A program made the translations under genes and the position numbers. The notes under the pieces are model-generated. The model did no database searches, was not told the origin of the DNA, and was given only the letters and a program-made list of their open reading frames with translations. A stretch of 64,000 nucleotides of DNA from Gallaecimonas mangrovi (GTDB taxonomy: Bacteria > Pseudomonadota > Gammaproteobacteria > Enterobacterales > Gallaecimonadaceae), in the NCBI RefSeq assembly GCF_003367375.1, contig NZ_CP031416.1, positions 3,940,674 through 4,004,673 of the forward strand, written 5' to 3'. Of the stretch, positions 1,730 to 11,967 are shown piece by piece (within the stretch, counting starts at the first letter, position 1; the number at the start of each line of letters is the position of its first letter).

Positions 1730-2290
1730 CTATCGGTAACGGTTAATCAGCACCTTAAGTGCCCCCTCAGAGAAGCCAAGATGCTTAGCGGTAATAGCAC
1801 CTACGTCATTTATTTCATAGAGCACCGGCGATAACTTGGCATCCATGTAAAGTTGTTTTGGGGCAAGATGGGTTTTCACTATCACCATGTCGGTATTGGC
1901 TAATTGCGCCGGCTTGGGAGGTGTTTCACCGGCAAAAGTGATCACCAAAAACGGTACGTGCTCTTGCTTACCCATGTAATTAATTAACGTTTCACAAGGG
2001 GGGCAACCTTCAACATAGGGCATAACCAGGGCTTTTCTCGTTAAAACTTGGCCGAGCTGAGTGTGTAAACTACCCACCACCACTGGCACTGTTAGATCTA
2101 ACCGCTTGTGCAGGTTGTGACTTTTTTCTTCCTCCACTAACGGTGAAAATGTGGCTGGCGAACTGAAAAAAAAGCCAATTAATCGCTGCCCTAAGCTGGT
2201 TTTTAAAAACACAGCAGTGACCAACACCATTAATAAAATAGCGAAGCTTATCTTGGCAAAGCGTTCGATTAATTGGCCCGCTGACATCAA
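1730..2290 (-). CDS. Membrane-anchored thioredoxin-like protein with CPPC motif
   Basis: A 186-residue protein with one N-terminal membrane segment (about residues 13-30) and a soluble domain containing a CPPC redox-type motif (Cys96, Cys99) after a short strand, VMPYVEG, as in thioredoxin folds. No lipobox is seen and the hydrophobic segment looks like an uncleaved anchor, so the domain probably faces the periplasm. That would suit disulfide exchange or thiol reduction, but this is inferred from the motif only. Its start overlaps the stop of the LuxR-type gene by four bases, so the two are translationally coupled. It could instead be a non-redox thioredoxin-fold protein; I do not recognise a named family. 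Confidence 0.7.
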   Translation of the reverse strand: MMSAGQLIERFAKISFAILLMVLVTAVFLKTSLGQRLIGFFFSSPATFSPLVEEEKSHNLHKRLDLTVPVVVGSLHTQLGQVLTRKALVMPYVEGCPPCETLINYMGKQEHVPFLVITFAGETPPKPAQLANTDMVIVKTHLAPKQLYMDAKLSPVLYEINDVGAITAKHLGFSEGALKVLINRYR

Positions 2291-2976
2291 AAAATACTTC
2301 CATTGAGCAGCAATTTAGTAATGGCCTGATTACGGTTTTCACTTTGAGTTTTAGCCAAAACATTATTTAAATGAAAGGAGGCAGTTCTTTCAGCAATATT
2401 GAGGATCTTTGCCACTTCCCAAGTGGTTTTTCCTTCCGAAACCCATTTTAAGCACTCTTTTTCTCTAGGGCTTAACTTCGGATATTCTGCTTCATCTGAA
2501 AGAATACGGTTTGCCTGCTGGTGATATACAGCAAAAAGAGCGGCCAGATTATCTACCTCATAGGCAAAGCGTTTGGCATCTTCGCTGTGATTAAAAAACA
2601 ACGTCAAGCTGCCGTAAGACAATCCCACCCCATGTACCGGACTTACCATAGCTGCCAGCTTTTCGTTTCTAATAGCCGATTGGAAGTTGGCTTTTAACAA
2701 AGGCAGCAAAGGTGTGACCAGAGTATGGTCAGATGCATACTGGGCAACCGGACATTCCGAGGTTTTGGTTTGCGTTAGGCTAGCGCCCCATTCAAAGGGC
2801 AAGTTATGCAGGCTAAGTACTTCATGGCGGGTGAGCGTCAACGGGCGGTGCAGTGCAAACCAGTAATGACTGGCCCCCAATTCCTTACTCAATTCGGCAA
2901 GGCAATTACTCAATTCTGCTCGGCTCTCAACGGTTCTAGCTTGAGAGATAAGATGACCAAAATGCTGCTGTTCCAT
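2287..2976 (-). CDS. LuxR-type transcriptional regulator (orphan autoinducer-binding-like domain)
   Basis: A 229-residue protein with a LuxR/GerE helix-turn-helix at about residues 165-229 (KLSPREKECLKWVSEGKTT, conserved Glu, Leu and Gly) and an N-terminal domain laid out like the acyl-homoserine-lactone-binding domain. The ligand-site residues are not standard: the Trp of the NxPxxW motif is present (LHNLPFEW), but the Tyr four residues later is Leu and the usual Asp-Pro is Cys-Pro (ECPVAQYA). No luxI-type synthase is in the window. It is therefore an orphan regulator that may bind something other than an AHL. The ATG at 2976 is chosen for GAGGAAAGG just upstream; a TTG at 3000 is possible. 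It is divergent from the CadC-like gene and coupled to the CPPC gene. Confidence 0.85.
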   Translation of the reverse strand: MEQQHFGHLISQARTVESRAELSNCLAELSKELGASHYWFALHRPLTLTRHEVLSLHNLPFEWGASLTQTKTSECPVAQYASDHTLVTPLLPLLKANFQSAIRNEKLAAMVSPVHGVGLSYGSLTLFFNHSEDAKRFAYEVDNLAALFAVYHQQANRILSDEAEYPKLSPREKECLKWVSEGKTTWEVAKILNIAERTASFHLNNVLAKTQSENRNQAITKLLLNGSIF

Positions 2977-3071: not shown

Positions 3072-3090
3072 GGTCACACAAAGGTCACAC
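3072..3090. promoter_or_regulatory. Tandem direct repeat GGTCACAC, one helical turn apart
   Basis: GGTCACAC occurs at 3072-3079 and again at 3083-3090, so the two copies start 11 bases apart on the same face of the helix. They lie between the divergent LuxR-type and CadC-like genes. OmpR/CadC-type winged helices usually bind tandem half-sites with about this period, so it is a candidate binding site for the adjacent CadC-like regulator. The repeat is seen; the binding is inferred. Confidence 0.45.
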
Positions 3091-3198: not shown

Positions 3199-5184
3199 TT
3201 GGCACATGGCGTGTTTAAAATAGGGCGTTTTTACCTTAATACTGAACAAAAGACCCTGTTGGATGAACACCAGCAGGAGGTGAGCCTAGAGGCCAAAGTT
3301 CAGGAAATACTGCTCTATTTGTTTGAGAACAGGGATCGCTACGTCACCCTGGAAGAGCTGCATGACAATGTTTGGGCGGGCCGTGTTGTCAGTGACTCTG
3401 CAGTCAGACGCGCCATAAGCAAGTTGAGGAAACTGCTAGGCGACCAGGGAGAACCCGCTCATTACATCAAATCGGTAGTTAAGAAAGGCTATAAGTTTGT
3501 TTGTGATGTTGAAGAAACTGAAGACTTAGTACCAGAAAGTCAATTACGACCGAAAGTAAAGAAAAAAAAGCCTATTCTAAAAAAAATTGGTTTTTATTTT
3601 CTCTATCTATTATTGATTTCTATAATTGTTGTTCTATTTAAAGCTACTTTTTTTAGGCTTGAGACATTAGACCAAAATGACGTTTTATTTATAAGCCGTG
3701 ATCTCAATAGTGGTGATCTTACCTATGTGGGTTTCTCATCAAGCGATATGAGATATCAACTATTTTACAGGAAACATGGTGGCGATGAAGATCATATTAT
3801 CAGGTCTTCAAGTAATCCTTTAATGTATCCATTTTCTTCAGGAGATAGTGTTTGGGTTGGATGGCAAAATAAAGATAAATGCGGATTGTTAAAAATATCG
3901 AAAATAAAAAATAGCACTGAAGAAGTAAAAATTGACTGTGAGATTCTTAGTCATATCTCTAGGGTTTCAGAAACAGAACTCTTAATTACTATGAAAAAAG
4001 ATAACAATAATAAATTCTTATCTTATCTGTTTGATACTAAAAGTTTATCTCTAAAAATAATACCTGAAACCGATAGCAATGTTCCTTTTATTGCAGCATT
4101 ATCACCTAACAAAAAAATATTAGCTCTTACAGAGAATAGTTCCACAGGTTCTATACTTAGACTGGTTGATATTAAACGGCATTTACAATTAAGAGATAAT
4201 ACACTCCCAGAGAACATTATCCAATTGAAATGGAATGGTTCATTATTGAAAATAGCAACAGAGCACAAGCTGTTCTCTTTAGATTCTCACACTGGAAAAA
4301 TAACTCAATTTGAAGTTAGACCAAACGTCACGATAAAAAATAGAATTATTGATTTTTGCTTTAATACTAATAAAAATGTGCAATCTCTAAATGATAATAA
4401 CATTGATATTAAAAGGTATCAAAATACCTACCTACTCAATGAAAACAAAATAACGTTTATTAAGTCTATTTCTCAAGATCCTAATAGGAAGTATATTGGA
4501 GATAATAAAGAAATTTACGAGGATGTAGAGAATTCAAATTATTTTCTTAAAAAAGAAAATAGTAATAGTATTATCCTGAAAAGTAATGTTCCAATAAAAA
4601 TGTTGGATACGAACAATGAGAATAAATCAATATTATTGTCAGCATCAAATCAACTATTCATATTAAATTCTTCATCAGGAGTCATAGAATATAATACTAA
4701 CTTTAGAAGTAACGTAAAGCAGGCTATCGCAGTTCCCAACATGCCTGCCTACTGGCTCATAGTAGAAACTCAAGCCGGCTGGCAAACGTTGCTATGGAAT
4801 TACGGTGAAAATAAACTGACAACCATCGCATTAAATGAGCGTTTTAGGTTTAAATTACAGAATAAACTTTATTGGGTTGATAGTAGAGACAATAAACTCA
4901 AGACACAAAGTGATAATGAGCATAGCTCTACGGTTAGTGGCTTATTGCCCTTAACAGACGATACTCAATGGGTAGTCGATGATGATCATAATATATGGTT
5001 TTCTATATCAAGGCCTTATGGAGAAGAAATCTATGGTCTTAAAATAGGAGAAGAGACGCCTCATTTCCAAGTAAGAGTTAAAGGGTTTATATCTATGCGT
5101 ATAAAGAATAAAAAACTAATAGTTGAAGTTGAAAGTAAACCAAACACTGTATTATCTAGTTCAATGAAGATATTCACATTATAG
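3199..5184 (+). CDS. CadC-like membrane-bound transcriptional regulator with AT-rich periplasmic sensor
   Basis: A 661-residue ToxR/CadC-type regulator. Residues 1-105 form an OmpR-type winged helix (VQEILLYLFENRDRYVTLEE, then SDSAVRRAISKLRKLLGD and IKSVVKKGYKF). A Lys-rich linker and one membrane segment follow at about 130-155, and some 500 residues should be periplasmic, with short repeating beta-rich stretches that suggest a propeller-like sensor. The start is a TTG preceded by GAGG six bases upstream. From about 3540 onward the DNA is strikingly AT-rich with many Asn, Lys and Ile codons, while the DNA-binding part matches the neighbours. It is convergent with the small secreted peptide gene. 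What it senses and regulates is unknown. Confidence 0.85.
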   Translation: MAHGVFKIGRFYLNTEQKTLLDEHQQEVSLEAKVQEILLYLFENRDRYVTLEELHDNVWAGRVVSDSAVRRAISKLRKLLGDQGEPAHYIKSVVKKGYKFVCDVEETEDLVPESQLRPKVKKKKPILKKIGFYFLYLLLISIIVVLFKATFFRLETLDQNDVLFISRDLNSGDLTYVGFSSSDMRYQLFYRKHGGDEDHIIRSSSNPLMYPFSSGDSVWVGWQNKDKCGLLKISKIKNSTEEVKIDCEILSHISRVSETELLITMKKDNNNKFLSYLFDTKSLSLKIIPETDSNVPFIAALSPNKKILALTENSSTGSILRLVDIKRHLQLRDNTLPENIIQLKWNGSLLKIATEHKLFSLDSHTGKITQFEVRPNVTIKNRIIDFCFNTNKNVQSLNDNNIDIKRYQNTYLLNENKITFIKSISQDPNRKYIGDNKEIYEDVENSNYFLKKENSNSIILKSNVPIKMLDTNNENKSILLSASNQLFILNSSSGVIEYNTNFRSNVKQAIAVPNMPAYWLIVETQAGWQTLLWNYGENKLTTIALNERFRFKLQNKLYWVDSRDNKLKTQSDNEHSSTVSGLLPLTDDTQWVVDDDHNIWFSISRPYGEEIYGLKIGEETPHFQVRVKGFISMRIKNKKLIVEVESKPNTVLSSSMKIFTL

Positions 5185-5214
5185 ATGCCGGTACTTATTT
5201 ATACCGGCATCTAT
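5181..5214. other. Perfect 13-bp inverted repeat between convergent genes
   Basis: ATAGATGCCGGTA (5181-5193) is repeated inverted at 5202-5214 with an 8-base loop, right at the CadC-like stop codon and before the convergent peptide gene. On the plus strand an A-run, not a T-run, follows, and on the minus strand the T-run precedes the stem, so it is not a textbook intrinsic terminator for either gene. It may still block convergent transcription or protect 3' ends. Confidence 0.6.
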
Positions 5215-5220
5215 AAAAAA

Positions 5221-5394
5221 TCATGAACTTCTAGTGATTAAGCATAGCATTGCATCACTACCCACATTTAAACAATAAGAAATAGACTGAATAATGTTGG
5301 TAGAATCATCACCGGAAGATGTTTTCGCTAAAACGCTTGGTGTGGTAATAGCTCCCATAACAATAGATATAATTAAAATAAATTTCTTGAGCAT
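5221..5394 (-). CDS. Small secreted two-cysteine peptide, 57 residues
   Basis: A short ORF with a good ribosome site (GGAG eight bases before ATG). The product starts MLKKFILIISIVMGAITTPS, a classical signal peptide, with a probable cleavage after VLA at residue 23. The mature part would be 34 residues with exactly two cysteines (41 and 51) in a context like SYCLNVGSDAMLC, which could form one disulfide loop. It lies in the same AT-rich patch as the CadC-like sensor and is convergent with it. I recognise no family. It might be a signal peptide ligand, a small toxin or bacteriocin, or a periplasmic accessory of the sensor; none of these is shown by the sequence. Confidence 0.65.
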   Translation of the reverse strand: MLKKFILIISIVMGAITTPSVLAKTSSGDDSTNIIQSISYCLNVGSDAMLCLITRSS

Positions 5395-5419
5395 AATCAA
5401 TCTCCATGACCTTTAAATT

Positions 5420-5466: not shown

Positions 5467-5493
5467 TAAAAAAGCCCTGCTCTTATCGGCAGG
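5467..5493 (-). terminator. Intrinsic terminator behind the 5536-5871 gene
   Basis: Read leftward: CCTGC, loop CGATAAGA, GCAGG, then GC and a run of six T (complement of 5468-5473). It separates the hypothetical gene from the small peptide gene, which therefore needs its own promoter. Confidence 0.6.
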
Positions 5494-5535: not shown

Positions 5536-5871
5536 TTATTTGCAATTGATGTAGCTTGTATCTAGCCACATCTCGATGCAGCGAACAGTGCCCAGGCCAT
5601 AACCGTCTTCATCATCACAATTTTGGCGGTAGTGTTCAGCAAGAGCAGCCAGTTGGCGCTGGCATCGCAGCAGGAAGGCATCAATAGATTCATCTGGTGC
5701 CAGAGTCAGTATCTGTTGGCATTGAAGAACGGCTGCTAACTCAATATGGCCAACATTTCCCCAGTGCCAAGACTCACTGATCTTCTGTTGTGCCAGGTTT
5801 CGTTGCTTAGCCAGCATCCGGCCCGCTGCTTTGATGAGCTTTTGCCGTTGATACCTTTGCCAAAGACCCAT
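5536..5871 (-). CDS. Hypothetical protein
   Basis: An 111-residue soluble protein rich in Gln, Arg and Leu, mostly helical by composition (QRQKLIKAAGRMLAKQRN), with three cysteines in the C-terminal half. It has no signal peptide or membrane segment. The ATG at 5871 follows a purine-rich GGGGAAGG; an in-frame ATG at 5910 would add 13 residues but has no ribosome site. A terminator follows at 5467-5493, so it is transcribed alone. I do not recognise a family and assign no function. Codon use resembles the GC-rich neighbours rather than the AT-rich patch beside it. Confidence 0.6.
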   Translation of the reverse strand: MGLWQRYQRQKLIKAAGRMLAKQRNLAQQKISESWHWGNVGHIELAAVLQCQQILTLAPDESIDAFLLRCQRQLAALAEHYRQNCDDEDGYGLGTVRCIEMWLDTSYINCK

Positions 5872-6234
5872 CTCGCCTTCCCCAACGCCTGAATTGAACC
5901 CGCTGGCCATCAGCGATTAATGCTAATGCCATAATGTGCTTCCACTATGCGTTTTATAGCGTAGGAAAAGTCGTCAAAAGCGGTTTAAGCTATGGCTGTC
6001 TGTACACAAATAAGCCAGTTTTTACCGGCCTTTGGGCGATTATCTACCAACGGTAGGGATCAAACGATAAAGACACTGGCGAAAAAGCGTGCTGGCGATG
6101 TATACATTGAAAACAACTGCAATGATTCCCATACGTTTCTTTACATCACTTTACGGCATGGGGCTTGGCCGGGATGAAAGAAACACGCAAGCTATCGATG
6201 CGCGCTTTTCTGCCTTCCAAAGACGAAGATTCAT
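5872..6234. other. Intergenic region upstream of the RND operon
   Basis: About 360 bases between divergent genes. I see no convincing gene: a 61-codon ORF at 5992-6177 has no ribosome site. It contains the perfect palindrome ATGTATACAT (6098-6107) and a short hairpin CTACC-AAC-GGTAG near 6045, which may be control elements of the efflux operon. No regulator gene is adjacent to the operon. Confidence 0.5.
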
Positions 6235-7374
6235 ATGACAAAACTGACCTTACTTTCAGGCCTGCTGGCACTGACCTGTACCTTGGCAGCCTGCCAGGAC
6301 CAAAAATCTGAGCATCACTCTCAAGCAAAAATTGAAGTCGGCGTTGTCACTCTTAAGGCAACTACTATCCCGCTGGACACCGAACTGCAAGGCAGGCTGA
6401 CAGCCTCCCTCTCTTCTGACGTTCGCCCTCAGGTCAGCGGTATTATTGAAAAGCGCCTGTTCACCGAAGGCAGCCAGGTGAAAAAAGGCCAGCTGCTCTA
6501 TCAGCTGGACCCTGCCACCTATCAGGCAGCCTACGACCAGGCGAAGGCGAATTTATTAAATGCCCAGGCCACGGTCACTGCCGATAAGCTCAAAGACGAG
6601 CGTTACCAGTCGCTGCTTCAAGACGAAGGCGTTTCGAAGCAAGATGCCGACGACGCCCACGCCACTTACCTTGCCGCCAAGGCCAGCGTTGCCAGTTACC
6701 AAGCCGCCGTTGAAAGCGCCCGCATTGACTTGGATCGCACGAAAATCAAAGCCCCCATTTCAGGCTTTATTGGTATTTCCAGCTATACACCTGGCGCCCT
6801 AGTTACCGCTGACCAAGACGACGCTTTGGCCACCATTCGCGCCCTTAACCCCATTTATGTGGATTTAACGCAGTCTTCCAAAGAACTCTTAAAACTGCGT
6901 AAAACCCTGGATCGCAAAACCGTAGAAAAAGGTACCGCTGCGGTCACCCTGACCCTTGAGGACGACTCCACTTACCCGCTGCAGGGCAAGCTGCAAATGA
7001 AGGAAGTCTCGGTCAACGAATCCACCGGTTCGGTGACCTTGCGCGCCGAGTTCCCTAACCCAAATGGGGTATTACTGCCTGGTATGTTTGTTCGCGCAAA
7101 AATTAATGAAGCAGTTGATAAAAAAGGTATTTTGGCCCCGCAGCAAGGGGTTATCCGCGACAACGACGGCAGCGCTCACGCCTGGTTAGCGGTGGATGGC
7201 AAAGCCAAGCGGGTAGAGGTCGTTACCGAACAAGCCATTGGCGACAAATGGGTGGTTTCTTCCGGTTTGCATGACGGCGACAAGCTCATTGTCGAAGGTA
7301 CCGACAAAGTCACTAACGGCGACGCCGTTAACGCCGTTGCCGTCAAACTCGACAGCAGCACAGGGGGCCAGTAA
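6235..7374 (+). CDS. RND efflux periplasmic adaptor lipoprotein (AcrA/MexA family)
   Basis: A 379-residue membrane-fusion protein that links the inner-membrane pump to the outer-membrane channel. The N-terminus is a lipoprotein signal with lipobox LAAC (Cys20). Then come the biotinyl-lipoyl half-motifs (DVRPQVSGIIEKRLFTEGSQ and later IKAPISGFIG), a coiled-coil hairpin at about residues 95-165 and the beta-barrel with LLPGMFVRAKI. The length and layout match AcrA/MexA. It is the first gene of a three-gene operon, with only 3 bases to the pump gene. The usual TetR-type repressor gene next door is absent. Substrates cannot be told from the sequence. Confidence 0.93.
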   Translation: MTKLTLLSGLLALTCTLAACQDQKSEHHSQAKIEVGVVTLKATTIPLDTELQGRLTASLSSDVRPQVSGIIEKRLFTEGSQVKKGQLLYQLDPATYQAAYDQAKANLLNAQATVTADKLKDERYQSLLQDEGVSKQDADDAHATYLAAKASVASYQAAVESARIDLDRTKIKAPISGFIGISSYTPGALVTADQDDALATIRALNPIYVDLTQSSKELLKLRKTLDRKTVEKGTAAVTLTLEDDSTYPLQGKLQMKEVSVNESTGSVTLRAEFPNPNGVLLPGMFVRAKINEAVDKKGILAPQQGVIRDNDGSAHAWLAVDGKAKRVEVVTEQAIGDKWVVSSGLHDGDKLIVEGTDKVTNGDAVNAVAVKLDSSTGGQ

Positions 7375-7377
7375 CCG

Positions 7378-10300
7378 ATGTTGGCCCGTTTCTTTATCGA
7401 TCGCCCCGTCTTTGCGTGGGTGATTGCGATCATCATCATGATGGCGGGGGTCTTCGCCATCAATACGCTGCCGGTGGCGCAATATCCCGACGTGGCACCA
7501 CCAACCGTTTCCATATCTGCCACCTATACCGGTGCCGATGCCAAAACCGTTGAAAACAGTGTTACCCAGGTACTAGAGCAGCAATTAACCGGTATCGATG
7601 GGCTGCTGTATTTCTCGTCCACCAGTTCTTCGGCCGGCAAGTCTTCCATCAAGGTAACCTTTGAGCAGGGCACCGACCCTGACACCGCCCAGGTACAGGT
7701 GCAAAACCAGGTATCACAGGTGGAATCACGGCTACCCACCTCGGTTCAGTCGCAGGGCATCACCGTTAAAAAGTCGCAAAGTGACTTCTTGATGATCTTT
7801 GCGTTGTACGATTCCACCGACCGCGCCACCTCAAACGATGTGGCCGACTACTTGGCTTCCAACATGCAAGACACCATCGCCCGTCTCGACGGTGTGGGTG
7901 ACGTGCATGTATTTGGAGCCCAGCACGCCATGCGTATCTGGCTGGACCCAACCAAACTGGCCGCCTATGACCTAATGCCTTCCGACATTACCAGCGCTCT
8001 TGAAACACAGAATGCGCAGCTGGCTGCCGGCAGCATTGGTGGCATGCCCACCACCAACGACCAGGAACTTAACGCCACTGTGACTGCCCAGTCGATGCTG
8101 CAAACGCCCGAGCAGTTTCGCAACATCATCGTTAAGCACAACTACAAAGGTGCCGACGTTAAGCTGAGCGATGTGGCCAAGGTCGAAATGGGTAGCGAAA
8201 GCTACAACTCTATTGCCCGCCTTAACGGCCACCCTGCCTCCGGTATGGCCATCATGCTGGCGCCTGGTGCCAACGCGCTTAGCACCGCCGAGCGCGTTAA
8301 ATCCGCCATCGCCAGCATGAAAAAAACACTGCCGGCCGGCTACAAAATTGGTTACCCCAAGGACAGCACCGCCTTTATCAAGGTCTCCATCGAAGAAGTG
8401 GTAAAAACCCTCTTTGAAGCCATCGCGCTGGTGGTGGTGGTGATGTTTGTGTTCTTGCAAAATTGGCGAGCAACGCTTATCCCCGCTATTGCCGTACCGG
8501 TGGTGCTACTGGGAACCTTTGGGGTGCTGTCGGTATTTGGCTACTCCATTAATACCCTCACCATGTTCGGTATGGTGCTATCGATAGGGCTGTTGGTGGA
8601 TGACGCCATCGTGGTGGTGGAAAACGTAGAGCGGGTGATGCGAGAAGAAAAGCTCGACCCGCGCCGCGCCACCATTAAGTCAATGAAGGAGATAAGCTCC
8701 GCCCTGATTGGTATCGCCGTGGTGCTGTCGGCGGTATTCCTGCCGATGGCGTTTTTCGGGGGTTCTACCGGCGTTATTTACCGCCAGTTCTCGATCACCA
8801 TTGTCTCATCGATGGTGCTGTCGGTTATCGTGGCACTGACCTTAAGCCCGACCTTGTGCGCCACGCTGTTAAAGGCCCATGACGCCGACCACACCAACAA
8901 GGGCTTATTCGGCTGGTTTAACCGCACCTTCGACGCCATGCTGGCCAAATACAGTGGCCGGGTCACCAAAGTGGTCCATCAGCCGGTGCGCTGGATGCTG
9001 GTGTACGGCGTTATTGTGGCGCTGCTGGCCATCTTGATGGTGCGGCTGCCTACCGGCTTTTTGCCCACCGAAGACCAAGGCGATGTGATGGTGCAGTTCA
9101 ACCTGCCCACTGGCGCCTCTATCAAACGCTCTATGGCGGTAGCCAAACAGGTTGAAAACTACTTCCTGACCGACGAGAAGAAAAACCTCAACACCCTGTT
9201 CACGCTGTCGGGATTTAGCTTTGGCGGTAACGGTCAAAACGCCGGTATGGCTTTTGTGTCCTTGAAAAACTGGGACCAACGCCCAGGCGAGGAAAACACC
9301 GCTAACGCCGTGGCGATGCGGGCTATGGCCAACTTGAGCAAAATTCGCGATGCCCGGGTTTTTGCAATGACACCGCCAGCCGTACACGGCCTTGGCCAAA
9401 GCGACGGCTTTAGCTTCCAGTTGCTGGCCGCTGCCGGTACCAGCCGTGACAAACTCACCGAGCTAAAAGAGCAGCTCATTAAAGATGCCCGTAAAGATCC
9501 GCTGTTAACCGGTATTCGCGAAGGCACCTTAACCGACACGCCGCAGCTGAAAGTCAACATTGATGACGCCAAAGCATCGGCGTTAGGTCTTAGCCTTTCC
9601 GACGTCACCAGTACCTTGTCTACCGCCTGGGCGGGTAGCTACGTTAACGATTTTCTCGATAACGAACGGGTTAAAAAGGTCTACGTGCAGAGCGAAGCCA
9701 AATACCGATCTTCACCAGACGACCTGAAATATTGGTACGTTCGCGGTACCGACAGCGACGGTGACGATGTCATGACACCGTTCTCGTCCTTTGCTTCAGT
9801 GAAATGGACCTCGGGGCCACAAAGCTTAAGCCGCTTTAATGGCAGCTCTTCTTTTGAGTTGGAAGGGACCGGTAACGGCATCAGTTCCGGCGAAGCCATG
9901 AACGAAATCGCCCGTTTGGCTGACGCCTTGCCAGGTAAGGCCGTTAGCTACGCTTGGAGTGGTTTGTCTTACCAGGAAAAGCTATCCAGTGGCCAAGCCA
10001 CCTTGCTTTACACCATTTCCATTTTGGTGGTGTTCTTGTGTCTGGCCGCCCTTTACGAGAGCTGGACAGTGCCCTTCTCGGTACTGCTGGTGATCCCACT
10101 TGGGGTGATTGGTGCCGCTTTGGCAGCCACCATCCGCGGCCTTGAGAACGACGTTTACTTCCAGGTTGCTCTGCTAACCACCATTGGTTTGTCGTCGAAA
10201 AACGCCATTTTGATCATCGAGTTCGCCGAGGAGGCTTATGAAAACGGTAAATCCGCTTTCGATGCCGCCTTGGAAGCAGCGCGCCTGCGCCTGCGGCCCA

Positions 10301-10515
10301 TTTTGATGACCTCGCTGGCCTTTATCTTCGGTACCTTGCCACTGGCGGTGTCTACCGGCGCCGGTGCCAACAGCCGAATTTCCATCGGCTCTGGCATGGT
10401 GGGCGGCACCTTAACCGCCACCTTGCTGGCCATTTTCCTGGTACCGCTGTTCTTCGTACTGGTCCGCCGTGCCTTCCCAGGCCGCCGACCGGTTTATGAA
10501 GACGATGATATTTAA
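7378..10515 (+). CDS. RND multidrug efflux pump, HAE1 family (AcrB/MexB-like)
   Basis: A 1045-residue inner-membrane proton/drug antiporter, the full family length. The start MLARFFIDRPVFAWVIAI is the typical first membrane helix. The proton-relay pair Asp408-Asp409 is in GLLVDDAIVVVENVERVM. The second membrane block is intact, with SSKNAILIIEFA and RLRPILMTSLAFIFG. The large periplasmic loops are uninterrupted, so the pump should work as a trimer with the adaptor before it and the channel behind it. It exports hydrophobic or amphiphilic compounds in known relatives; the actual range is not inferable here. Confidence 0.95.
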   Translation: MLARFFIDRPVFAWVIAIIIMMAGVFAINTLPVAQYPDVAPPTVSISATYTGADAKTVENSVTQVLEQQLTGIDGLLYFSSTSSSAGKSSIKVTFEQGTDPDTAQVQVQNQVSQVESRLPTSVQSQGITVKKSQSDFLMIFALYDSTDRATSNDVADYLASNMQDTIARLDGVGDVHVFGAQHAMRIWLDPTKLAAYDLMPSDITSALETQNAQLAAGSIGGMPTTNDQELNATVTAQSMLQTPEQFRNIIVKHNYKGADVKLSDVAKVEMGSESYNSIARLNGHPASGMAIMLAPGANALSTAERVKSAIASMKKTLPAGYKIGYPKDSTAFIKVSIEEVVKTLFEAIALVVVVMFVFLQNWRATLIPAIAVPVVLLGTFGVLSVFGYSINTLTMFGMVLSIGLLVDDAIVVVENVERVMREEKLDPRRATIKSMKEISSALIGIAVVLSAVFLPMAFFGGSTGVIYRQFSITIVSSMVLSVIVALTLSPTLCATLLKAHDADHTNKGLFGWFNRTFDAMLAKYSGRVTKVVHQPVRWMLVYGVIVALLAILMVRLPTGFLPTEDQGDVMVQFNLPTGASIKRSMAVAKQVENYFLTDEKKNLNTLFTLSGFSFGGNGQNAGMAFVSLKNWDQRPGEENTANAVAMRAMANLSKIRDARVFAMTPPAVHGLGQSDGFSFQLLAAAGTSRDKLTELKEQLIKDARKDPLLTGIREGTLTDTPQLKVNIDDAKASALGLSLSDVTSTLSTAWAGSYVNDFLDNERVKKVYVQSEAKYRSSPDDLKYWYVRGTDSDGDDVMTPFSSFASVKWTSGPQSLSRFNGSSSFELEGTGNGISSGEAMNEIARLADALPGKAVSYAWSGLSYQEKLSSGQATLLYTISILVVFLCLAALYESWTVPFSVLLVIPLGVIGAALAATIRGLENDVYFQVALLTTIGLSSKNAILIIEFAEEAYENGKSAFDAALEAARLRLRPILMTSLAFIFGTLPLAVSTGAGANSRISIGSGMVGGTLTATLLAIFLVPLFFVLVRRAFPGRRPVYEDDDI

Positions 10516-10527
10516 GAGGAACAGCAG

Positions 10528-11967
10528 ATGACCTTTAAAACACACAAACTGGCTTGTCTCCTCGTTGTTAGCCCGCTGTTTTTAGCGGGCTGTAACCTGG
10601 CGCCCGATTATCAAAAACCTGACGCCGCTATCCCCACAGCGCTGCCCAAAGGCGAAGCCTATGACAAGGCTTACCAACAAGGTGCCAACGGCAAATCCGC
10701 CGCCCAAGTCCCCTGGCAGCACTTTGTGCAAGATACGCGGCTGCAAAAGGTGATAGCGCTGGCTCTGGCCAATAACCGCGACCTGGCACAAACCGTGGCC
10801 GATGTCGCCGCCGCTCGCGCTACCTACAAAGGTGAATACGCTGACCAGTTCCCGGAAATAGACGCCGGTGTTTCGGGTACCCGTGAAAAGAGTAGCGACG
10901 GCCAAATTAGCTCCAGCTACGAGGCCACCCTTGGCCTCAGTAGCTACGAAATTGACTTGTTCGGCAAAGCCCGCAACATGACCAAGATGGAGCTGGAAAC
11001 CTACCTTTCTAGCGCTGAAACCGCCCGCGCCGCCAAAATCACCCTGATTGGCGAAACCGCCACGGCCTGGCTCACTCTGGCCGCCGATAAAAGCTTGTTG
11101 AAGCTGGCGCAAGACACCGCTGCCAGTGCCCAGAAAACCATGGCCATCAGCAAAAAGCGGCTGGAATTGGGGGTAGACTCACGGGTGGACTTAAGCTCGG
11201 CTGAAACCACCTACCAAAGCGCCCGCGCTGATGTTGCCAGCTACCAAACCCAGGTCGCACAGGACATTAACGCCCTGAACCTGCTGGTAGGCCAAAGCCT
11301 GGACGCAGCGCTGCTGCCCGGCAACTTGCCAACCGACGGTGGCTGGCTGGCCCAGGTGCCAGCAGGCATTTCGTCAAAAGTGTTGCTGGAGCGCCCCGAT
11401 GTGTTAGCCGCCGAGCACACCTTAAAAGCGGCCAATGCCGACATAGGCGTGGCCCGCGCCGCTTACTTTCCCACCCTTAGCCTTACCGCCAGCGGCGGCT
11501 TGGCAAGCTCGGCGCTGTCAGACTTGTTTAGTGGCGGCGCCAGCCATATCTGGTCGGTAGCGCCCAGTGCCACCCTGCCCATTTTTGACTGGGGCGCCAA
11601 CAGCGCCGAGGTGGCGTACACCAAGGCCGAGCGCGACAAAGACATTGCCGCCTATCAGTACACGCTGCAAACCGCCTTTCAGGAAACCGCTGACGCCCTG
11701 GCGCGCCGCGGCACCATTGAAGAACAGCTTTCGGCCCAGCGCGCTTTAGTGAGTGCTGCCCAGAAGAGTTATGACCTGTACTTCAAACGCTATAAGGCTG
11801 GCATCGACAGCTTTGAGGACGCGCTCACTTACCAGCGCACCCTTTATAGCGCCCAGCAAACCTTGATAAGTACCCGCCTGACCGAGCTCAGTAACCGGGT
11901 TACCTTATACCGGGTTCTCGGTGGCGGCTTGGCCGGCACCAAAGATGAAAAGCCGGTTAGCCAATAA
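10528..11967 (+). CDS. Outer-membrane efflux channel lipoprotein (OprM/NodT family)
   Basis: A 479-residue outer-membrane factor that forms the exit duct of the RND pump. It has a lipoprotein signal with LAGC followed by NLAPDYQKP, the typical OprM start, and the internal duplication of the TolC fold: two helical-hairpin repeats, seen as ALALANNRDLAQTVADVAAA and LKAANADIGVARAAYFPTLS. It lies 12 bases behind the pump gene with GAGGA before ATG, and a strong terminator follows. The operon adaptor-pump-channel is therefore complete and self-contained. Confidence 0.94.
   Translation: MTFKTHKLACLLVVSPLFLAGCNLAPDYQKPDAAIPTALPKGEAYDKAYQQGANGKSAAQVPWQHFVQDTRLQKVIALALANNRDLAQTVADVAAARATYKGEYADQFPEIDAGVSGTREKSSDGQISSSYEATLGLSSYEIDLFGKARNMTKMELETYLSSAETARAAKITLIGETATAWLTLAADKSLLKLAQDTAASAQKTMAISKKRLELGVDSRVDLSSAETTYQSARADVASYQTQVAQDINALNLLVGQSLDAALLPGNLPTDGGWLAQVPAGISSKVLLERPDVLAAEHTLKAANADIGVARAAYFPTLSLTASGGLASSALSDLFSGGASHIWSVAPSATLPIFDWGANSAEVAYTKAERDKDIAAYQYTLQTAFQETADALARRGTIEEQLSAQRALVSAAQKSYDLYFKRYKAGIDSFEDALTYQRTLYSAQQTLISTRLTELSNRVTLYRVLGGGLAGTKDEKPVSQ

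Follow-up and report, generated by a model that had tools for sequence, protein, structure and literature searches.

The window, the whole stretch of 64,000 nucleotides that we analyzed, contains a short gene on the minus strand (5221..5394) for an apparently secreted peptide of 57 amino acids, MLKKFILIISIVMGAITTPSVLAKTSSGDDSTNIIQSISYCLNVGSDAMLCLITRSS. A first reading of this DNA, made from its sequence only, had described a short ORF with a good ribosome-binding site, a signal peptide, and a 34-residue mature part with exactly two cysteines, and all of these are found on inspection. The ribosome-binding site, read from the sequence, is GGAG (5402..5405, minus strand), 7 nt from the ATG. The signal peptide (5326..5394, minus strand; residues 1-23), which was called by eye and with crude leader scripts, seems to be of the Sec type: it has a KK n-region, a hydrophobic core, and a VLA/K-type cleavage site, with cleavage after VLA. 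A double-glycine leader, as in class II bacteriocins or microcins, is absent from the window peptide. The two cysteines delimit a loop close to the C terminus (C41-x9-C51). Upstream of the gene, a terminator-like hairpin (5476..5493, minus strand), identified by its match to the consensus, may form a boundary between it and the next gene.

The peptide gene is convergent with a gene for a membrane-bound CadC-like regulator (3199..5184, plus strand), as the sequence-only reading had also stated, and just 36 bp lie between the two ORFs. A strong hairpin of 15 bp (5179..5216) sits between the convergent 3' ends and includes the stop codon of the CadC-like gene; its folding energy is -23.1 kcal/mol on the plus strand and -28.1 kcal/mol on the minus strand (z of -8.2 and -8.8). 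That reading had further remarked that the peptide and the periplasmic domain of the regulator have a similar AT-rich composition. This is the case in the window (GC of 0.33 for the peptide and 0.31 for the periplasmic part), whereas the corresponding values for the sister species are 0.51 and 0.36. Because AT-richness is not common to both partners in the sister species, composition is no evidence of a link.

The CadC-like protein (661 amino acids) is a transmembrane transcription regulator with an OmpR-type winged helix (PF00486, E = 8.6e-15; 55 bits versus a cutoff of 26.2), a single transmembrane segment, and a periplasmic domain of predicted beta-propeller type (3661..5181, plus strand). 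The transmembrane segment is a strongly hydrophobic 19-mer, by simple hydropathy, that ends just ahead of residue 154. The protein is not E. coli CadC proper, as its score for NF007540 is 56.5 bits and the curated cutoff is 400. An AF2 model of the periplasmic domain from 45 sequences, which we used instead of an earlier model from 6 sequences that was too weak (pLDDT of 64), has a pLDDT of 84.8 and a pTM of 0.75, with beta strands almost throughout. Both Foldseek and VIA searches with this model led to beta-propellers. The best VIA row was TolB of Acinetobacter (Z of 18.7, rmsd of 3.4, 232 residues aligned), with many rows within one Z unit, and three complexes of TolB with colicin peptides (3iax, 4jml, and 2ivz) were in the top 10 VIA matches. 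The CadC periplasmic fold (3ly7) was not among the matches listed for the model, which excludes nothing. The periplasmic domain is predicted to have a propeller fold, and since the model has about 47 strands in its 507 residues, it probably comprises two propellers; VIA rows align either residues 2-237 or segments drawn from the two ends, which leaves several topologies.

Divergent from the CadC-like gene is a gene for a LuxR-type regulator (2287..2976, minus strand; PF00196). Its stop overlaps the start of a gene (1730..2287, minus strand) for a protein that has a hydrophobic N terminus and a CPPC motif (CPSC in the sister species) and that is thioredoxin-like by inspection. The CPPC protein has no match in Pfam or NCBIfam, and its match in the PDB had an E value of just 0.47. 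On the other side of the peptide gene are an ORF of 124 amino acids with no family match (5536-5910) and, beyond it, an RND-type efflux operon (6235-11967), identified with Pfam. A relative of the 124-aa ORF in another genome of the genus (G003) is also beside an RND-type efflux operon (L057).

Conservation and history within the genus

We compared five genomes from the genus: the genome of the window (G000), its sister species (G001), and G002, G003, and G004. The peptide is present in two of these, G000 and G001. The G001 peptide has 52 amino acids and is 37% identical to the window peptide (E = 0.0084), and the two have the core YC[LM]N[VL]G..A.LCL in common. Their local alignment score is 77 for the whole peptides and 50 for the mature parts, versus means of 20.6 and 16.5 for shuffled sequences, and in both cases, none of 20,000 shuffles scored as high. 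The length of the window ORF is not significant by itself (in Markov sequences of the 351-bp gap, the probability of an ATG ORF of at least 57 codons is 0.08), so the reality of the ORF rests on its conservation in G001. We conclude that it is a real gene.

Among the five genomes, a full-length relative of the window's CadC-like receptor is also found only in G000 and G001 (45% identity). The concern that the peptide might be absent from relatives that keep this receptor was thus not borne out: the same two of five genomes have both. The gene for the CPPC protein is likewise in G000 and G001 only, and a scan of genome contigs found no relative of this protein elsewhere. The receptor and the CPPC protein are each about 45% identical between the window and G001, and the last 64 residues of the LuxR-type regulator are identical (L026, 6160-6945), which may reflect strong constraint or a recent exchange. 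No peptide was found beside the other CadC-like genes of G001 to G004 (L069, L070, L071, L076, and L077).

The expectation that the peptide gene would always lie next to the CadC-like gene holds in G000 but not in G001, where the two are on separate contigs. In G000, the gene order is LysE, prolyl oligopeptidase (POP), CPPC, LuxR, CadC-like, and peptide, and alpha-2-macroglobulin (A2M) was not found in this genome. The order is LysE-POP-A2M in G003 and POP-A2M in G004 (with POP identified by similarity). In G001, the genes are divided between two contigs: POP-CPPC-LuxR-CadC-like, with transposases after it, is on the first, and LysE, transposases, the peptide, and A2M are on the second. A DDE_3-type transposase region, 98% identical, is near both breakpoints (contigs C7 and C11; L027 and L026). 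The gene orders of G000, G001, G003, and G004 suggest as the simplest history that there was one island, POP-(CPPC-LuxR-CadC-like-peptide)-A2M, which would have been split later in G001 via insertion elements. Given this split and the gene order in G003 and G004, the adjacency of receptor and peptide is probably ancestral.

Beyond the genus, a search with the alignment A1 against 394 genomes from the order gave 18 further weak places, and 17 of these (all but L043) have no relative of the peptide. Two places with a lookalike of the core (L042 and L047) were rejected, because each is in a short frame that lacks a leader and has a stop just upstream. Scans of genome and viral contigs, plasmids, and phages did not find a relative either (for phages, six records with E values of 4 or worse). 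Among everything searched, a sequence relative of the window peptide was found only in G001.

Peptides beside other CadC-like genes

A first scan of 20 regions around other CadC-like genes identified leader peptides with two cysteines beside three of them (L066, L072, and L073). For a larger survey, the query (A5) was an alignment of six receptor periplasmic domains, five from receptors with peptides and one from a receptor without. With at most three candidates scored per genome, 107 of the 394 genomes from the order matched at E = 1e-8 or better. Sixty regions were picked from this ranking before scanning, although not strictly as the top 60; 59 of them have a recognizable receptor, and one (L079) was left out because its receptor ORF was too short. 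In these regions, we counted leader-bearing ORFs of 32-130 amino acids that overlap larger ORFs by at most 45 nt, lie within 500 bp, and have exactly two cysteines after the leader, 4-13 apart. The criterion of a leader plus exactly two cysteines came from the window finding, and the leader rule was altered slightly between scans; the limits of 500 bp and on cysteine spacing were fixed after viewing the ORF listing for the 59 receptors. As controls, we used predicted ORFs, rather than curated genes, of at least 130 codons and at least 2.5 kb away in the same regions.

On the 3' side, 30 of the 59 receptors have such a peptide, versus 1 of 231 control ORFs (Fisher p = 2.8e-23, which overstates independence because the loci are related); given the choice of regions and the make-up of the query, this proportion should not be read as a population frequency. 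On the 5' side, the counts are 1 of 59 receptors and 0 of 231 control ORFs. If the spacing rule is dropped, then 27, 31, and 32 of the 59 receptors have a peptide within 300, 500, and 1,000 bp, versus 1 of 231 controls, so the limits that were set post hoc hardly matter. One of the 30 positives (L128) was judged to be spurious. A relaxed look by eye, which was kept out of the p-values, added seven loci with two-cysteine peptides and three with four cysteines; by eye, 36 of the 59 receptors have two-cysteine peptides, 3 have four-cysteine proteins, and 20 have none. The four-cysteine loci are from the genus g8, where secreted proteins of about 105 amino acids (L105, 7413-7724; L139, 6900-7214; and L141, 9215-9535) are convergent with the same type of receptor. 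They are possibly a sister form of the two-cysteine peptides.

With the rule fixed beforehand, 3 of 20 lower-ranked receptors have a peptide on the 3' side, versus 1 of 93 control ORFs (p = 0.017), and 1 of 20 has one on the 5' side, versus 3 of 93. A class-wide search for the receptor matched 27 of 369 genomes, many of them only in frames of TolB size. Outside the order, 13 places have frames of at least 680 residues, and of the 11 that had loci and were scanned, none has a convincing peptide by eye (the winged helix was not confirmed for each). Since peptides are few at the lower-ranked loci and at those outside the order, the pairs belong to certain clades of receptors, and since many receptors have no peptide, this type of receptor does not require one.

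The 45 peptide-paired rows represent 14 genera and 7 families, and L189 (from G262) adds one more genus. We placed 84 receptors on a tree by a quick method with long branches flagged; the 45 rows scored as having a peptide include the four-cysteine loci and the moved copy in G001. The presence of a peptide requires 6 changes on this tree, versus a mean of 28 if it is shuffled, and none of 500 shuffles was as low. The receptors of the window and G001 form a clade, which groups at 100 (starred) with the receptors of L066 and L121, both of which have peptides; this join involves rows flagged as long, and the joining of L066 with L121 may be false.

We also considered the converse, starting from the peptides. 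A DNA pattern for CEP[FY]P[DE]C has 10 matches in the 394 genomes, and every one of them is in a gene for a leader peptide on the 3' side of a CadC-like gene; read backwards, the pattern has 2 matches. The pattern was drawn from known pairs: 8 of the 10 are in the discovery set, one (G089) is in the later set of 20, and one (G302, contig C1) is new. At the new match (L207), both the winged helix and the periplasmic domain were confirmed upstream.

The pairs vary in arrangement and in the peptides themselves. Many of the other pairs are on the same strand, and the window pair and some others are convergent. A single genome, G272, encodes at least four of these receptors, and the four peptides that accompany them (at L087, at L103, and two at L107) all differ. 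Among 42 two-cysteine entries, the loop has 5 residues (26 entries), 6 (12), 8 (2), or 9 (2), and it contains proline in 34. The window loop, with nine residues and no proline, differs from the common x5 or x6 loop. After residue 24, 38 of 48 peptides have a net negative charge. Lengths and linkers vary widely. Tandem copies are found at two loci, L066 and L108. The L066 peptides have CILLPQLC in three tandem copies, and the L121 peptide has CILVPELC. The three tandem genes of L066 (2780-3419) lie behind one receptor, their products end with HTVCILLPQLCN[KR], and dN/dS between the copies is 0.24.

Purifying selection is apparent in related pairs elsewhere: dN/dS is 0.11-0.43 in 8 of 15 close pairs, which are those with computable dS, although three of the 8 values are unreliable (dS above 2). 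The window pair (pS of 0.75 and pN of 0.46) and six others of the 15 are saturated at synonymous sites. The peptides fit no curated family. Just one of 48 matches a Pfam model (E = 0.0036), and each of three NCBIfam models has a single hit among them (best E = 0.00077). The names of all these models are unrelated, and the window peptide has no match in either collection.

Possible roles of the peptide

The peptide-regulator pairs in these related bacteria look like an undescribed peptide-sensing system. The open-access full-text literature, to which our search was limited, had no report of such peptide-receptor pairs, and a term search of PMC10269533 gave no match to "propeller," "TolB," or "small protein."

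With moderate confidence, we propose that the peptide is a dedicated periplasmic ligand or partner of the neighboring propeller-type CadC-like receptor. The peptide would be made with its Sec leader and exported to the periplasm, where the two cysteines would close a small disulfide loop. This loop would dock on the beta-propeller domain of the receptor, and occupancy would alter the activity of the cytoplasmic winged helix through the single transmembrane segment. What we regard as established is that the gene exists and is conserved, that such pairs recur across genera, and that the receptor domain is predicted to fold as a propeller. The role as a ligand or partner is argued for by the pairing relative to controls, the converse test, the clustering on the tree, and the dN/dS values. 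In addition, the TolB-colicin peptide complexes show that a periplasmic propeller can take a peptide, and tandem copies, as at L066 and L108, are more readily expected of ligands than of a fixed subunit. Some observations argue against a ligand: 20 of 59 receptors have no peptide, the lower-ranked receptors have one in just 3 of 20 cases, and the loci outside the order in 0 of 11; the window loop is atypical; the G001 pair is on separate contigs; and the peptide gene of the window, unlike many of the others, has no 11-bp repeat upstream. The sequence-only reading had suggested, from position, a paired peptide-sensor unit. The pairing has gained support from the adjacency that we infer to be ancestral, the association relative to controls, and the clade-structured presence, and the mechanism is still a proposal.

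The main alternative, which we consider unlikely, reverses the relation: the CadC-like regulator would control the peptide gene as a local target, and the peptide would be an output, secreted as an effector with an antimicrobial, envelope-stress, or metal-binding role. Direct repeats for OmpR-type winged helices usually have a spacing of 11 bp, and an effector would be consistent with the 11-bp-spaced repeats that we found upstream of 20 of 46 peptide genes, versus 0.19 of 185 control regions (p = 0.0008, which is optimistic because the 46 upstream regions are related). Across spacings of 8-16, the counts are highest at 11 (20), followed by 10 (14); simulated counts for 11 bp average 8.0, and none of 200 simulations reached 20. 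This enrichment implies that OmpR-type proteins, such as the receptor of the pair, probably regulate some of the peptide genes. However, the repeats would be equally expected if the peptide were a ligand under autoregulation. Such repeats are also frequent upstream of receptor genes, both with peptides (0.40) and without (0.44). Furthermore, we did not find an 11-bp repeat in the region upstream of the window peptide gene, and the only CadC-type operator is in the luxR-cadC gap. This candidate is the 11-bp-spaced direct repeat GTCACACAAAGGTCACAC (3073..3090, plus strand; GTCACAC-N4-GTCACAC), which is likely to be an autoregulatory operator of the CadC-like protein. The pattern GTCACACRAARGTCACAC has one occurrence with no mismatches in each of G000 and G001, both in the luxR-cadC gap, and elsewhere in the five genomes it has one match with two mismatches (G004). 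As for a motif common to the cadC and peptide promoters, the best shared 16-mers were generally no better than shuffles. The RND-type efflux operon beyond the next gene might also hint at an effector, but G003 has the efflux operon together with the 124-aa gene and no peptide, so the operon is not tied to the peptide.

Less probable again is a redox or pH sensor, in which the cysteine pair of the peptide would exchange with that of the receptor, with help from the CPPC protein in this genus. Of 45 aligned peptide-paired receptors, 40 have the cysteine pair, at domain residues 74 and 93; the CPPC gene is in the same two of five genomes as the peptide; and the periplasmic disulfide of E. coli CadC is pH-dependent (PMC3096576). 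However, most receptors without peptides also have the cysteine pair, and five peptide-paired receptors lack it (L066, L097, L104, L111, and L121). Because the scan of genome contigs found no relative of the CPPC protein elsewhere, it cannot serve the other pairs, and the study of E. coli CadC (PMC3096576) saw no major change in regulation when dsb genes were deleted singly.

It is very unlikely that the peptide, instead of being a signal, assists the receptor as a small chaperone or stabilizing factor, in the manner of ToxS with ToxR. Its position as the 3' neighbor is fixed, co-component systems are a known theme (PMC9214523), and the leader could conceivably remain uncleaved as an anchor; against this, the mature part is very small, two loci have tandem copies, and the lengths and linkers are highly variable. 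That the ORF arose by chance or is a functionless hitchhiker, as its length by itself would permit, is hardly credible in light of its conservation in G001, the association statistics, and the selection in related pairs.

If the peptides are ligands or partners of their receptors, as we propose, then these pairs may show Gram-negative one-component receptors reading gene-encoded peptides. More tentatively, and at somewhat below even chances, they could represent a widespread kind of peptide communication that has not been described in Gram-negative bacteria, in which peptides that are ribosomally made, Sec-exported, and disulfide-looped would each be read directly by a membrane-bound propeller transcription factor of their own, with several separate pairs in one genome. 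To our knowledge, few of the membrane-bound transcription factors of the ToxR/CadC type have a known signal, and small peptide genes beside dozens of these receptors are ligand candidates that can be tested immediately. The receptors and peptides of G272 would be of use as separate sensor parts in the laboratory.

Comparison with known systems

First, in the peptide pheromone systems of Gram-positive bacteria, such as Agr and Com, the receptors are kinases or cytoplasmic regulators. As in those systems, a small gene for a leader peptide is beside the gene for its receptor, and a small ring is likely to be the active part. Unlike those systems, the receptor is a one-component membrane transcription factor in Gram-negative bacteria, and the peptide is proposed to act in the periplasm.

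Second, TolB is a soluble protein that is part of Tol-Pal and is not a transcription factor. The proposed pairs resemble its complexes with colicins (3iax, 2ivz, and 4jml), in which a periplasmic beta-propeller takes a peptide, with the qualification that the receptor's fold is a prediction and many propellers score nearly equally.

Third, according to PMC3096576, E. coli CadC has a winged helix, a transmembrane segment, and a large periplasmic domain with a cysteine pair, as does the window receptor. The window receptor differs from it in the predicted propeller and in the adjoining gene for a secreted peptide, whereas E. coli CadC has the LysP permease as its co-sensor.

Finally, VtrA/VtrC and ToxR/ToxS, as described in PMC9214523, are like the window pair in combining an OmpR-type winged-helix factor that has one transmembrane segment with a fast-evolving periplasmic partner from a neighboring gene. 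In those systems, the partner is a lipocalin-like protein encoded by a downstream gene in the same orientation, and the two genes overlap in VtrA/VtrC. Here, in contrast, the partners are leader peptides of 50-110 amino acids with a short cysteine loop, and the mature part of the window peptide, at 34 residues, would be too short for a lipocalin-like barrel. Also unlike VtrA/VtrC, the receptor domain is predicted to be a propeller, and the window peptide gene is convergent with the receptor gene instead of being downstream in the same orientation.
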